Source: Acidilobaceae archaeon (GTDB lineage: Archaea; Thermoproteota; Thermoprotei_A; Sulfolobales; Acidilobaceae). From it: DNA of 45,385 nucleotides. Location of the stretch: the NCBI GenBank assembly GCA_027080775.1, contig JALWPV010000072.1, positions 1 to 45,385 on the forward strand. Reading direction: 5' to 3'. The notes below the pieces were generated by a model. It was not told the origin of the DNA. It did not search any database and was given only the letters and a program-made list of their open reading frames with translations. Positions 1-44,234 of the stretch are shown one piece after another (within the stretch, counting starts at the first letter, position 1; the number at the start of each line of letters is the position of its first letter). Position numbers and translations under genes: made by a program.

Positions 1-834
1 GGCGCGGAGCTCACGGAGCTGGGGGTGGAGGTTCTCAACGCCTTCAGGAGGGCCTACCAGAGGATACACGGCGCCCCCCCAAGCCCTCCCCGCGCCGCAG
101 GGAGGCCTGGGGAGCGGGCGGTGCTCGTCTATGCCGGCAGTAATGACCCCCTGCTCCAGAGGATCCTGGGCCTCCTAGGCGATAGGGGGGTGAAGGTGGA
201 GGCCCACTGGCTGGGCTCCCTCCAGGGGCTCGCGAGCGTCCTCCTAGGCGACGCTGACGTGGCCGGCGTCCACGTCGTGGATCCCGTGACCGGCGAGTAC
301 AATAAGACCCTCCTGGGGGGAGTGGCAGGGGCCGCCCACCTAGCCATGGTCAGGGGCTACAGGAGGAGGATAGGCCTCGTCTCCAGGAGGCCGGTCAGCG
401 TGGAGGAGGCGCTTCAGGGACTCCTGGAGGGTAGGCTCACAGTAGTCAACAGGCCCAAGGGCTCGGGGTCTAGGGTGCTCCTCGAGAGGCTGCTGTCCGA
501 GGCCGCTGGGCTGGGCTGGCCCCCCGACGAGGGCCTACTGGAGGCCAGAGTCAAGGGCTGGGGCCGCGTCGCGGCGACTCACACGGAGGTAGTGGAGGCC
601 GTAGCCAGGGGGGAGGCCGATGTAGGCGTGGCGGTCGAGGCCGCGGCCTCCACGCTGGGCCTCCATTTCACTCCACTAGCCTGGGAGTGGTTTGACTTCC
701 TTCTCGCGACACGCAGGAATCCGGCGGCACTCTCGCAGTTCATCGAGGTACTATGCTCCGATGAGGCAAGATTCATAGCAAGGGGGTTGAGGGGTTATGA
801 GTACTCTATCGAAAGCTGCGAAAGGATCCTCTAA
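1..834 (+). CDS. ModE-like regulator with periplasmic-binding-protein-type sensor domain (5' end cut by window)
   Basis: The reading frame is open from base 1, so the gene starts upstream of the window; 277 residues are visible. The first residues (GAELTELGVEVL) match the end of the winged-helix domain of ModE-type regulators, where an 'LT..G..ll' segment follows the wing. The rest (about residues 45-270) looks like a PBP-like effector domain (LysR-substrate/PF12727 type): it has the segment VNRPKGSGSRVLLERLL, then ATHTEVVEAVARGEADVGV, typical of domains that bind molybdate, tungstate or a pterin precursor. It sits just upstream of, and codirectional with, the tungstate transporter, so it is inferred to control that operon through the palindrome at 904-921. 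The family assignment is firm; the ligand is inferred. Confidence 0.75.
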   Translation, partial: GAELTELGVEVLNAFRRAYQRIHGAPPSPPRAAGRPGERAVLVYAGSNDPLLQRILGLLGDRGVKVEAHWLGSLQGLASVLLGDADVAGVHVVDPVTGEYNKTLLGGVAGAAHLAMVRGYRRRIGLVSRRPVSVEEALQGLLEGRLTVVNRPKGSGSRVLLERLLSEAAGLGWPPDEGLLEARVKGWGRVAATHTEVVEAVARGEADVGVAVEAAASTLGLHFTPLAWEWFDFLLATRRNPAALSQFIEVLCSDEARFIARGLRGYEYSIESCERIL

Positions 835-35534: not shown

Positions 35535-35581
35535 CGTTTATCCTGTAATCCTCTGGGATATCGTGTGTGGAGGGGGTGTCC
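35535..35581 (+). promoter_or_regulatory. Promoter and ribosome-binding site of ribonucleotide reductase
   Basis: TATA-like CGTTTATCC (35535-35543) and GGAGGGGGT, 5 bases before ATG 35582. The latter decides the start over the in-frame GTG at 35567. Confidence 0.5.
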
Positions 35582-38500
35582 ATGCCTAGGGTTGAGGTGC
35601 TGAAGAGGGACGGGAGGAGGGAGAGGTTCCTGCCGGCCAAGCTCTACGAGGGCATAAGACTCGCCGTCGAGGGCGCGGGCCTCCCAGTCGAGGAGGCTAA
35701 GAGGCTATTCGAGGCGGTCAAGGCCGAGATACTAGAGGAGGCCAGCGAGACCGGGCAGCCCGTGCCGACCGCCAGGATAGCGGATAGGGTCGAGAGGCTG
35801 ATGGTGGAGTGGGGCCTCAGGAACCCGCTGTGGTTCGAGGCGGCCAAGCGCTTCGAGCTAGCAAGGATCTACAATGACGTCTACGGCAAGGGGGCCTGGG
35901 ACGGCTTCGACGAGGCCGACCTCAGGCTCACCTTCAACGCGATAAAGGTCCTCGAGGCCCGCTACCTCCAGAAGGACCCCGAGACGTGGAGGTTCAAGGA
36001 GACCCCCCAGATGATGTTCAGGAGGGTCGCCCGCTTCCTAGCAGGGGTTGAGAGGCGCTACGGGAAGAGCGAGGAGGAGGTGAAGAGGTGGGAGGAGGAG
36101 TTCTACAGGATCATGAGTGAGCTGAGGTTCATACCTAACAGCCCCACGCTCATGAACTCCGAGACGGAGCTGGGCATACTCTCAGCCTGCTTCGTCGTGC
36201 CCGTCAGGGACAGCATAGTAACGCCCGACGGGGAGGGGATCCTCGACGCCGTTAGGGCGCAGGCCGTGATATTCCAGCACGGCGGCGGCGTCGGCTTCGA
36301 CTTCAGCGAGATCAGGCCGGCGAACGATGTAGTCCTCACCAGCGGGGGCCTCGCGAGCGGGCCCCTCAGCTTCATGAGGCTCTTCGACCTCAACACGGAG
36401 GTCATTAAGCAGGGCGGCAGGAGGCGCGGCGCTAACATGGGTATAATGCACGTGTGGCATGCCGACGTGGAGGACTTCATCAGGGCCAAGACGGGCGAGC
36501 TAAAGGACGTCAACCTGCAGAACTTCAACATAAGCGTGGGGATATACGACGAGTTCATGAGGAGGGTCCTCGAGGGGGGCGAGTGGCCCCTAGTCAACCC
36601 CAGGAAGACGGACCTGACAGGCAGGAGGGACAGCAGGTACTACGCCATGGTCAGGGCGAGGCACTATATGAGCGAGGAGTGGGTCCAGGAGTACATAGTG
36701 AGGGAGCTGGAGGAGCACGGTGGGAGCATAGCCCTAGACGAGACGACCCTACTCACATTCGACGAGGCCCTTGCCATCGCCGAGGCCGAGGGCGCCATAG
36801 TCAAGAAGGTGAACGCCCGCGACCTATTCGAGCGCATAGTCCACGGCGCGTGGGACAGCGGCGACCCAGGCATAATATTCATAGACGAGATCAACAGGCG
36901 CCACCCAATATGGTATATTGGAAAAATAAATTCAACAAACCCGTGTGTGAGCGGTGACACCAGGATACTAACGCCGGAGGGTTGGAAGACTGCCAGGGAG
37001 GTCTTCGAGGAGGCCCGCAGAAACGGTGTCGTACGCGGTGTCGCAGTAGACGACGACGTGCTAGGCGAGGGCGGCGAGCCTGTGGCCTACAAGACGAGGC
37101 TGCTCACGGTCGTTGGTAAGGAGGAGATCTACAGGACCGTGTGGGGCGACACCCTCGAGCTAGTTGTACCCAAGGCGGTCGATGCGTGGGTGTGGCACGT
37201 CGGCAGGAAGCCAGCGCTCAAGGTGAAGACCAAGGAGGGCTATGAGATAACTGTCACGCACGAGCACAAGTTCCTGACGCCCGAGGGCTGGAAGGAGGCC
37301 GAGAAGCTAAGGCCGGGCGATAAGATAAGCTTGGCGAGGCTGCACCCAGCCTTCGAGGCCTACGAGGGCTCCGTGGACCTAGACGAGGACGTGGCCTTCG
37401 CCCTAGGCTGGCTCATAGGTGACGGCACCTTCAACGAGCACTATGCGGCCTGGTTCTTCTCGGGCCACGACAAGGCGGCTGAAGAGAGGGTCAGGAGGGG
37501 CATAGAGAAGCTCGGGGGCAACCCCCTATCGCACACCTACGTGCTCAGCGAGTCCGAGCATAAGATCCAGTACAATAGGGGCACCAGGGTCTACAAGAGC
37601 GTCCTAGAGCTACTAGGCTCCACACTCGCCAGAAGCCGGGAGAGGAGGCTGCCCGAGATAGCGTGGAAGCTCACACCCAGAGCCCTAGCGGCCTTCCTGA
37701 GGGGGCTCTTCACGGCCGACGGCTATGTAGACTCCGATAAGGCGATCCGGCTCACCAGCGCCAGCTTAGACCTCTTGAAGGAGGTCCAGGTGCTCCTGAC
37801 AACGTTTGGAATATACTCGACTATCTACGAGCGGCCCTACGAGAGCGAGTTCCGCTACACAACAAAGGACGGAGAGGAGAGGGTGTACCACGCCAGCGGC
37901 TACTACGAGCTAGTCATTAAAGGCTACAGTAGGAGGCTCTTCAAGGAACTAATCGGATTTGAGAGTATAGAGAAGCTCGAGAAGCTCAGCCTAGCCAAGA
38001 CAAAGAGGGACTCCGTCTGGGCGACCGTGGAGGAAGTAGTAGACGTGGGCGAAGTTGACTTCTATGACTTCACTGTACCGCTGTACCACAACTACATAGC
38101 CAACGGCCTGGTGAACCACAACTGCGGTGAGGAGCCTTTACTGCCGTGGGAGAGCTGTAACCTGGGTAGTATTAATCTTGAGAGGTACGTGGTCGATACT
38201 GGTGAGGGGCCTAGTGTTGACTGGGAGGGGCTGGCTAGGGATGTCAGGGTTGCTGTGAGGCTCATGGATAATGTGATTGATGCCTCACGCTACCCCCTGC
38301 CGCAGCTGGGTGAGGCCGCTAGGAGGGCTAGGAAGATAGGCCTCGGAGTGATGGGTTGGGCCCGCATGCTGATACGCCTCGGCATACCCTACGATAGCCC
38401 CGACGCCGTCTACCTGGCGTGGGCGGTGGCTGAGTGGATAGCGTGGAACGCCTACATGGAGAGTGTGAGGCTAGCCGGGGAGAAGGGGGCCTTCCCCGCC

Positions 38501-39481
38501 TGGGATCCGGAGCGGTACAGGTGGATCTTCGAGACCCTCCCGTTCAGGGAGCCCGGCGAGATGCTTAGGCTCGTGGAGGCCGAGACGGGGAGGAGGGGCT
38601 ACTACGCGCCGCCTAGCGAGAGGGTGAGGCGCATACTCGCAGCGAGGCCCCCGGTTGACTGGGGTGAGGTCAAGAGGGCCGCTATGAGGGTGGGTCTCCG
38701 CAACGCCGCGCTGCTGAGCATAGCACCCACTGGGAGCATTAGCATTATAGGCGGTGCCAGCGCCAGTATAGAGCCCCTCTTCGCCCTAGCCTACGTGAGG
38801 CAGGTGAGCGTCGGCACGTTCCTCGAGGTAGACCCGCTATTCATAGAGGAGCTGAGGAGGCTCGAGATAGACGAGCCCGAGGTCATAGAGGCCATAGCGG
38901 AGACGGGCAGCGTGGCCCACCTCAAGTGGATACCCAGGAGGCTCCGCCGCCTCTACAGGACGGCCCACGACATAGACCCCGAGTGGCACCTACTCCACCA
39001 GGCCGCATGGCAGGCCTGGGTCGACGCAGCGGTCAGCAAGACAGTCAACCTACGCCACGACGAGCCCCCCGAGACGGTCTGGAGGGTCTACATGCTGGCC
39101 TGGAAGCTACACGTGAAGGGCACCACGGTCTACAGGGACCGCAGCAAGAGCCAGCAGGTCATATACTTCGGCGTCAAGAAGGAGAAGGAGGAGAAGCGGG
39201 AGAAGGAGGCCCCCAAGCCCTCCGAGGCTCCTACGGCCGAGAGGGCCCCCCGCGAGGAGGAGCCCAGCGAGGGCGAGGAGGAGCTGAAGCCCGTGCTCGT
39301 CATAGAACCCGCCAGCCCGCCCTCCGAGGCCCCGCAGCCAAGCACAGCCGCGGAGGCCGCGGGGGAGGCGCACAGGATGGCCCCGACACGCTCGAGGGTC
39401 AGGCTGGGGAGCGGCAAGATAAAGGAGCTAGTGGCCGTGGCCGCGGAGTATGCTGGGGGATGCCCCACCTGCGATATCTAG
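35582..39481 (+). CDS. nrdJ: Class II (adenosylcobalamin-dependent) ribonucleoside-diphosphate reductase with intein
   Basis: Reduces ribonucleotides to deoxyribonucleotides. 1299 aa precursor; extein 906 aa after removal of a 393-aa intein at residues 455-847. N-terminal ATP-cone ([25 protein letters not shown]), then the barrel: SACFVV (disulfide Cys), [23 protein letters not shown], the split active-site motif [23 protein letters not shown]. The C-terminal part has a long Lys/Glu-Pro-rich linker and ends GGCPTCDI, the redox-shuttle CxxC. No small-subunit gene and no glycyl-radical motif are present, which fits class II. ATG 35582 follows GGAGGGGGT. Codons on either side of the intein are more AT-rich than the rest. 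Confidence 0.92.
36944..38122 (+). mobile_element. Intein with LAGLIDADG homing endonuclease in nrdJ
   Basis: 393 codons in frame, starting with Cys ([14 protein letters not shown], splicing block A) and ending NGLVNHN before the extein Cys (blocks [19 protein letters not shown]). Block B is [14 protein letters not shown]. Two LAGLIDADG motifs are visible ([11 protein letters not shown] and [12 protein letters not shown]), so the endonuclease looks complete. The insertion is exactly before the catalytic-loop cysteine of NPCGE, so the enzyme is inactive until splicing. This insertion point is known in other ribonucleotide reductases. Confidence 0.93.
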
Positions 39482-43524: not shown

Positions 43525-43559
43525 CCCAACCCTTGAGGGTCAGGCTCAGCCCCCCGGGC

Positions 43560-43572
43560 CTCCTATAATAGT
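43560..43572 (-). promoter_or_regulatory. TATA box of the C25 protease gene
   Basis: On the minus strand CTATTATAGG (about 43561-43571) lies about 40 bases before the start at 43524. Upstream, 43573-43850 contains no gene; tandem AACTATACAT-like repeats near 43686-43711 are AT-rich and unexplained. Confidence 0.4.
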
Positions 43573-43854
43573 CGAGGCCCCACAACCTCCCGTTCGAAGC
43601 CTACGAACAATAACCTCTAGAAAGAGAATCGCGCGTCTCCACCTGCCACTAATGCGATAACCCATACAGAGCCTATGATGTCTTGTTTAGCAATAACTAT
43701 ACATAAACTATACATACAACGCATGACTAAGCCCTGCGGCCAGGATTGCCAGGGACATCCCGCTGTTGAGTCTAGCGGCATGCGTGTGCGGCTTCAAGCC
43801 TTAGTACCCGAGAATGGTAAGGGAGAAAGCCCCCAAGGAAGGATAGCTGCTGTG

Positions 43855-43944
43855 GGGGCGGCGGGTCAGCGTGCCAACCGCAGGCCATCGGGCCCCTGGC
43901 CCGAGGCCCTCGGCCTATGGGGTGTTCATCACCCCCGCCGCCCC
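43855..43944 (-). ncRNA. Candidate box C/D-type (K-turn) small RNA
   Basis: Read on the minus strand: GGGGCGGCGGG, then box C GTGATGA (43926-43932), 56 bases, box D CTGA (43866-43869), then CCCGCCGCCCC. The flanks pair perfectly over 11 bp, so boxes C and D are brought together exactly as in a K-turn for L7Ae. Inside are two small hairpins (CCGAGG-GC-CTCGG type and GGGCC-AGG-GGCCC) and a possible degenerate D' (CCGA) and C' (CGATGG). Spacing is a little longer than usual for archaeal C/D guides and the terminal stem is longer than usual. It lies in a 525-base gap with no convincing protein gene. Confidence 0.55.
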
Positions 43945-43945
43945 A

Positions 43946-44051
43946 GTACTCTAGTATGGTCTTTAGTCCAACTTAAGCCTTACTCCAGTCCTAGTGATTG
44001 TATAGCTTATTATATACAGAGACTAGAGTACAGACATGCGGGTGCGGGGGC
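43946..44051 (+). promoter_or_regulatory. Promoter of the AbrB-like gene, flanked by a 10-bp inverted repeat
   Basis: TATA box CTTATTATATA (44006-44016), expected start near 44038, gene start GTG 44052. GTACTCTAGT (43946-43955) is repeated inverted as ACTAGAGTAC (44022-44031), the second arm lying between TATA box and start. Candidate operator pair. Confidence 0.5.
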
Positions 44052-44234
44052 GTGGAGTTGCGGAAGACGGTGAAGCTTAGGATACAAAGGGGGAAGCACG
44101 GGCAGGCGATAAGCTACACAGTAACACTACCCAAGGACTATGTTGAAGCCCTCGGCTGGGAGCCCGGGGAAAAACTCGAGGTAGCCTTGGACACGGAGAA
44201 GCGGGAGATCAGGATACGGCGGCCCGCCCCCTAA
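44052..44234 (+). CDS. AbrB/MazE-type (SpoVT-AbrB) DNA-binding protein
   Basis: 60 aa, a single swapped-hairpin domain: KLRIQRGKHGQAISYTVTLPKDYVEALGWEPGEKLEVALDTEKREIRIRRP. The 'TLPK..V..LGW.pGd.l.v' pattern is diagnostic. Acts as a dimeric DNA-binding regulator; in archaea many are antitoxins or autoregulators. GTG 44052 is chosen because it follows the TATA box by the right distance and has G-rich sequence upstream; the longer frame from 43998 would start before the TATA box. Confidence 0.8.
   Translation: MELRKTVKLRIQRGKHGQAISYTVTLPKDYVEALGWEPGEKLEVALDTEKREIRIRRPAP

Follow-up and report, generated by a model that had tools for sequence, protein, structure and literature searches.

The window analysed here, a stretch of 45,385 nucleotides from an Acidilobaceae-type archaeon, contains a gap at 43525-44051 with a peptidase C25 gene on one side and a MazE-type gene on the other. 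On the minus strand of this gap, 11 perfect base pairs surround a box C and a box D in exact kink-turn register (Table 1). From the arm GGGGCGGCGGG the sequence runs through GGU and GATGA to a D' guide of 12 nt and CCGA; next come a hairpin and a degenerate C', then a D guide of 12 nt, CTGA and finally the arm CCCGCCGCCCC. Read against the consensus of archaeal promoters, a TATA-like sequence lies upstream, and across 17 loci there is a weak AT peak at -35 to -31.

Table 1 Predicted features of the RNA locus and the evidence for each
Feature	Position	Strand	Evidence
Divergent MazE/AbrB-type gene	44052-44234	+	Pfam PF04014, E 3.9e-08; tblastn: neighbour kept in G002, G072, G032
TATA-like CTTAAGTT, 22 nt before ACTGGGG	43970-43977	-	TTTATTAA in G072 orthologue, equal spacing
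Whole RNA (predicted C/D-family sRNA, extended form)	43855-43944	-	Sequence; fold z -5.1; 97% in G002, 83% over 88 nt in G014
5' arm of terminal stem, GGGGCGGCGGG	43934-43944	-	11 contiguous bp; outer pairs of relatives; covariation
3-nt kink-turn bulge, GGU	43931-43933	-	Sequence and register comparison
Box C, GTGATGA	43926-43932	-	Sequence; GU of box C overlaps bulge
12-nt D' guide, ACACCCCATAGG	43914-43925	-	Without convincing rRNA target
Box D', CCGA	43910-43913	-	CTGA in most extended relatives
Hairpin GGGCCTC/GGGGCCC, then GAT	43887-43909	-	Fold and covariation; with GA of D' gives GA/GAU internal loop
Degenerate box C', ATGGCCT, canonical 12 nt from D	43882-43888	-	Comparison with L017 (GTGATGT in short relative sharing D guide)
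D guide, GCGGTTGGCACG	43870-43881	-	Pairing with 16S GTGTCAGCCGC and 23S GTGTCGGCCGC
Box D, CTGA	43866-43869	-	Sequence
3' arm of terminal stem, CCCGCCGCCCC	43855-43865	-	Sequence; 11-bp register

The initial annotation had described the two boxes as lying between exactly complementary arms on the minus strand, and the arms are found exactly at the two ends of the element. It had also placed the boxes directly against the stem. This holds for box D, but on the box C side a further G stands between the 11-nt arm and GTGATGA and completes the GGU bulge of the kink-turn. Under kink-turn pairing rules, a 3-nt bulge allows 11 contiguous bp, whereas a 2-nt bulge allows 3 bp and a 4-nt bulge 2 bp. 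The combination of TGATGA, CTGA and a Watson-Crick stem in this register occurs at a single place in the window, the 11-bp one; in 200 first-order Markov copies of it, four stems reached 4-5 bp and no stem reached 6 bp. A chance origin of the stem and boxes, already judged very unlikely by the initial annotation, was rejected because none of the 200 copies held even a 6-bp version.

Predicted folding gives -64.0 kcal/mol (z -5.1) for the minus strand and -60.1 (z -4.2) for the plus strand. As both strands are stable, folding alone is insufficient for a strand call, and the strand was assigned from the boxes and the relatives. The spacing is 12 nt from C to D', and before D it is 12 nt with ATGGCCT as C' or 15 nt with GATGG as C'. 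Both the guides of about 12 nt and, by sequence and register, the box C/box D terminal K-turn of a C/D sRNA are present.

A 132-aa ORF (43675-44073, plus strand) spans the gap. In G002, a genome of the same genus, an earlier stop occurs and a matching start is absent; because the frame is not kept there, we rejected the ORF as a coding gene and consider it probably not a gene. Elsewhere in the window, the ribonucleotide reductase large-chain gene (35567-39481, plus strand) contains an intein with a LAGLIDADG domain.

Relatives and the orthologous locus

In the sister species G002 the element is 97% conserved together with its flanks. A strict stem-and-box pattern (28 fixed bases) retrieved eight stretches of the GTDB species set, all from Acidilobaceae or Desulfurococcales MAGs. 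The stem pattern GGCGGG-2..4-GATG-28..58-CTGACCCGCC, searched in 214 genomes across the order, gave 18 matches in 13 genomes, and a reversed-pattern control gave none. Over these 18 loci, 74 of 90 cells are paired at the outer five stem positions, which the pattern left unfixed. When the near-duplicate G002 row is removed the figure is 69 of 85, whereas 2000 arm swaps averaged 52.9 and never exceeded 66. Conservation of the stem and boxes in relatives, on which the initial annotation had staked its candidate, is borne out by G002, by a G014 RNA (83% over 88 nt) and by these outer pairs.

The interior is short at 11 of the 18 loci; an exact CTGA stands as D' at the expected place in seven of these, and CTGG or a weaker box in the other four. 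Many same-stem relatives are ordinary C/D sRNAs. Six strict C/D pattern matches in the window's own genome (G000), some of them possibly fortuitous, pair over 1-6 bp at their termini when read with a 3-nt bulge, so the long stem is a mark of the pattern set and not of all C/D candidates. No Rfam 15 family matched at the gathering cut-off, the best being a sub-threshold sR10 (10.8 bits compared with a cut-off of 45).

In G072, a member of another genus, the divergent MazE gene (61% over 59 aa) and the 11-bp stem both recur on one contig. The downstream flank has 71% identity to that of the window over 79 nt, and the interior is a canonical sRNA (C, 12 nt, D', a short spacer, C', 12 nt, D). The MazE gene of G032 (64% over 55 aa) also adjoins a short C/D sRNA, and a MazE-type gene lies beside the RNA in four genomes. 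Since G072 and G032 have the MazE gene next to a short C/D sRNA, the window locus is, on these comparisons, an old C/D sRNA locus. Because the orthologous G072 locus, with the same stem, is a textbook C/D box sRNA, we assign the predicted RNA to the C/D family by descent and not to an unrelated class of K-turn RNAs. The initial annotation had proposed a K-turn RNA atypical for a plain guide; its terminal stem proves real and conserved, but its suggestion of another K-turn RNA outside the C/D class is not supported, given the G072 orthologue, whose identical stem, boxes, downstream flank and neighbour gene belong to an ordinary C/D sRNA.

At the MazE locus the interior is short and canonical in G072 and G032 and extended in the window and G002. 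The closest match to the extended interior of the window is the G014 RNA mentioned above, and the window flanks gave no match to the flanks of that RNA. The simplest reading is an exchange of the interior at the MazE locus; alternatively, a hairpin may have been gained and convergence followed.

Other MazE-type genes were also seen near related RNAs. On G002:C74 (L118, 224-549), a second MazE-type gene (57% to that of the window) adjoins a degenerate extended RNA, and the gene downstream of the extended RNA, on its strand, is AbrB/MazE-like in G000:C59 (L135) and in G064:C53 (L136). A second long K-turn RNA subtype, alike in two genera, occurs at G000:C60:2098-2177 and G064:C74:630-708, with GGGCTGACTGGGCC before box D.

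The extended interior and its linkage to element genes

Five members served to build model R1, with which 48 genomes of the family were searched. We count 14 extended loci (the window, G002:C97, G014:C10 at 36525 and 38600, G014:C33, G022:C154:878, G022:C72, G065:C46, G000:C59, G066:C14, G064:C53, G011:C51, G002:C74 and G001:C3), omitting weaker R1 matches and the G000:C60 subtype. G002:C74 and G001:C3 are degenerate; these two and the near-duplicate G002:C97 were left out of the alignment, which holds the remaining 11.

In these 11 RNAs, 93.6% of cells are paired over the terminal stem, the hairpin and the D'-C' pairs. Double changes occur in 5 pairs, whereas shuffles average 1.3 and 1 of 500 reaches 5, and the covariation score is 0.211 compared with 0.141 (reached by none of 500 shuffles; at most 0.099 for a slid alignment), in a test that is not wholly independent because the counted structure was trimmed from the RNAalifold structure. 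On the same alignment RNAalifold gave 21 pairs, nine with double changes, but its covariation term was close to zero. Taken by themselves, the five closest extended copies show no significant covariation and are uninformative. Covariation in related genomes, the other refuting test set by the initial annotation, came out positive over the 11 extended RNAs.

All 11 aligned RNAs retain box D and the terminal K-turn elements. Where the second base of D' faces its C' partner, five RNAs have U-G, four C-G and two U-A, and this variation favours a helix over K-turn pairing at C'/D'. With a D' of CCGA, a degenerate C' and covariation that favours a GA/GAU-loop hairpin, the D'/C' side is predicted to form neither a K-turn nor a K-loop, and for this reason the RNA was not filed as a plain guide. 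Long D'-C' spacers, some of them hairpin-bearing, occur in other families too among the matches listed (e.g., G115 and G116), so a hairpin by itself does not set the clade apart. In the C/D sRNAs at G115:C194 and G116:C138, which belong to another family, the long D'-C' hairpin is accompanied by a distance of 16 nt from GATG to box D, like that of the extended form.

Copies stand beside mobile-element genes in four genomes (G014, G022, G000 and G064). On G014:C10, an archaeal integrase (PF16795; phrog_5127, E 2.3e-71) is found together with a HerA/VirB4-like ATPase and T2SSF- and T2SSE-like proteins; the VirB4-like gene has RNAs on both sides, some 38 and 156 nt away, and two further R1 matches lie farther along the contig. 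An RNA is 39 nt from a VirB4 relative (54% identity) on G014:C33, and RNAs are about 37 and 163-172 nt from VirB4 on G022:C154, where the second is of the short form. On contig G000:C59, from the same genome as the window, a VirB4 relative lies at the contig end, and some 115 nt separate its start from an extended RNA. Counting any element protein in the fetched stretch as linkage, 7 of the 14 extended loci are linked; the unlinked ones are the window, G002:C97, G065:C46, G066:C14, G011:C51, G002:C74 and G001:C3. The number linked may be too low, because several of the unlinked loci are on short contigs or short fetched stretches. VirB4 relatives were found in 5 of the 48 genomes, and R1 gave no match next to the VirB4 fragments in G016 and G017, nor 3' of VirB4 on G000:C10. 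The 13 proteins of the mobile element gave no match in the 45-kb window at E 1e-3. Viral spread of the RNA was rejected, as 15 IMG/VR pattern matches are chance-like, with 0-3 of 5 outer pairs each, and the plasmids and phages searched gave no match.

The D' guide of G022:C154:878 is that of G014:C10:38600 except for the first base, and its hairpin and D guide are of the other type (G014:C10:36525 and G014:C33). A short G010 RNA shares the window's 12-nt D guide but carries a different D' guide. Such varying combinations of stem, guides and hairpin suggest module shuffling. The extended interior is common to the VirB4-element RNAs, by exchange or by descent; the linkage is seen on the contigs, and the direction of transfer we infer.

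Guides and possible ribosomal RNA targets

Positions 2-12 upstream of box D form 11 of 11 pairs with 16S GTGTCAGCCGC, two of them G-U, at what we take, from its place in 16S, to be the 530 loop. Of 500 shuffled guides, six equal this fit anywhere in the roughly 830 nt of 16S available before the contig ends. The same positions form 11 of 11 pairs, three of them G-U, with 23S GTGTCGGCCGC, 30 nt before what is presumably the sarcin-ricin motif, and this site fits nearly as well. At the presumed 16S methylation site the window guide pairs G-U. Changed D guides in G014:C10:38600 and G022:C72 keep full 11/11 pairing with both sites. Among 15 D guides, the 530 loop is matched with 0 mismatches by four (the window, G014:C10b, G022:C72 and G010), with 1 by the G030/G065 guide, with 2 by four guides and with 3 by that of G072; five have their best 16S site elsewhere.

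None of six D' guides gave a mismatch-free 11-position match to rRNA. Exact complements of the D guide, allowing one mismatch, occur at 18 places in its own genome and at 24 in the control, so mRNA targets are not readable from this search. Predicted methylation sites are many in helix 18 of other archaea, according to PMC4644070. The 23S rRNA gene of the window's genome (G000:C9:24601-29781, L035) is 5181 bases long compared with 2987 in the model, with apparent introns of about 2.2 kb.

Proposed mechanism and alternatives

We consider it likely that the locus encodes a variant box C/D-family sRNA that acts as follows. Transcription would start at or just before the stem, and the 11-bp terminal stem, as read from the sequence, would bring box C and box D together. 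L7Ae would bind the kink-turn and recruit Nop5 and fibrillarin, for which a gene is present in the genome, as is an RNA ligase family gene. The D guide would pair with the 530 loop and possibly with the 23S site near the sarcin-ricin loop, directing 2'-O-methylation of the U opposite the fifth guide base (the U in 16S GTGTCAGCC and in 23S GTGTCGGCC). The RNA is probably of the guide type, for ribosome modification. Its D'-C' side would be a GA/GAU-loop hairpin in place of a normal K-loop, with a D' half that is probably weak or inactive, and the degenerate state of C'/D' speaks against full activity at two sites. Stability at high temperature is a probable benefit of the long GC stem, which would probably also make the RNA well suited to circularisation by an RNA ligase like that encoded in this genome.

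Like archaeal box C/D sRNAs, the RNA has box C, box D, 12-nt guides and a terminal K-turn, and its orthologous locus holds a canonical member; it differs in the 11-bp GC terminal stem, the D'-C' hairpin and the degenerate C'. PMC8413462 describes the C'/D' pair of archaeal guides as essential for function, whereas the pair is degenerate here. Circular C/D sRNAs made by the archaeal RNA ligase Rnl provide a parallel in their terminal stem: according to PMC9014305, three or more terminal pairs are possible in 21 of 24 circular C/D sRNAs of T. kodakarensis, and 16 of 17 non-circular ones have two or less. Fluidity of guide modules as such is already published; in Dennis et al. (2015, PMC4644070), guides with their boxes were apparently recombined or mobilised between C/D sRNA genes in Methanopyrus and Ignicoccus. 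Guide modules appear exchanged between sRNA genes in both cases, but in the present set the exchanged parts sit between the arms of a long shared terminal stem, and genes of an integrative element adjoin several copies. No report of mobile, plasmid-borne or virus-borne archaeal C/D sRNAs came up in searches of open-licence literature. Tentatively, and as a rather doubtful extension, we suggest that C/D-type guides aimed at the host ribosome form part of the own cargo of a conjugation-type integrative element in hyperthermophilic archaea, with RNAs moving between element and chromosome and the shared GC stem serving as a frame for guide exchange.

An RNA of C/D descent might instead have lost methylation guiding and act as an rRNA chaperone or antisense RNA, perhaps on an element or host mRNA. 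The degenerate C'/D' with its GA/GAU internal loop, the orphan D' guide and the VirB4-element linkage of 7 of the 14 extended loci would fit this, but the D guide holds its 11/11 match to the 530 loop through changes in three genomes and the terminal K-turn elements and box D persist in all 11 aligned members, and we regard such a loss as unlikely. That the element is a DNA-level palindrome or recombination site of a mobile element, with boxes by chance, is very improbable: the inverted repeat is strong on both strands, the stem is shared while the interior changes, and element genes adjoin several copies, but same-stem relatives carry D' and C' boxes outside the search pattern, the orthologous locus is a canonical C/D sRNA and the promoter-like sequence keeps one spacing. 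Scarcely credible are a cis-acting K-turn element of the MazE-type gene, which adjoins the RNA in four genomes but is divergent, so that the RNA is outside its leader, and an H/ACA RNA, rejected because the ACA that follows the stem in the window (43851-43853) is absent in G072, L046 and L010, the K-turn is terminal and not inside the upper stem as the H/ACA layout has it, and Rfam gives no H/ACA match.

As a predicted C/D-family guide, the RNA in its hairpin form offers a natural way to ask whether one kink-turn is enough for an archaeal guide to function. Copies adjoin element genes in four genomes and a related copy occupies a conserved chromosomal C/D sRNA locus; the several relatives next to mobile-element genes may show how such RNAs spread.
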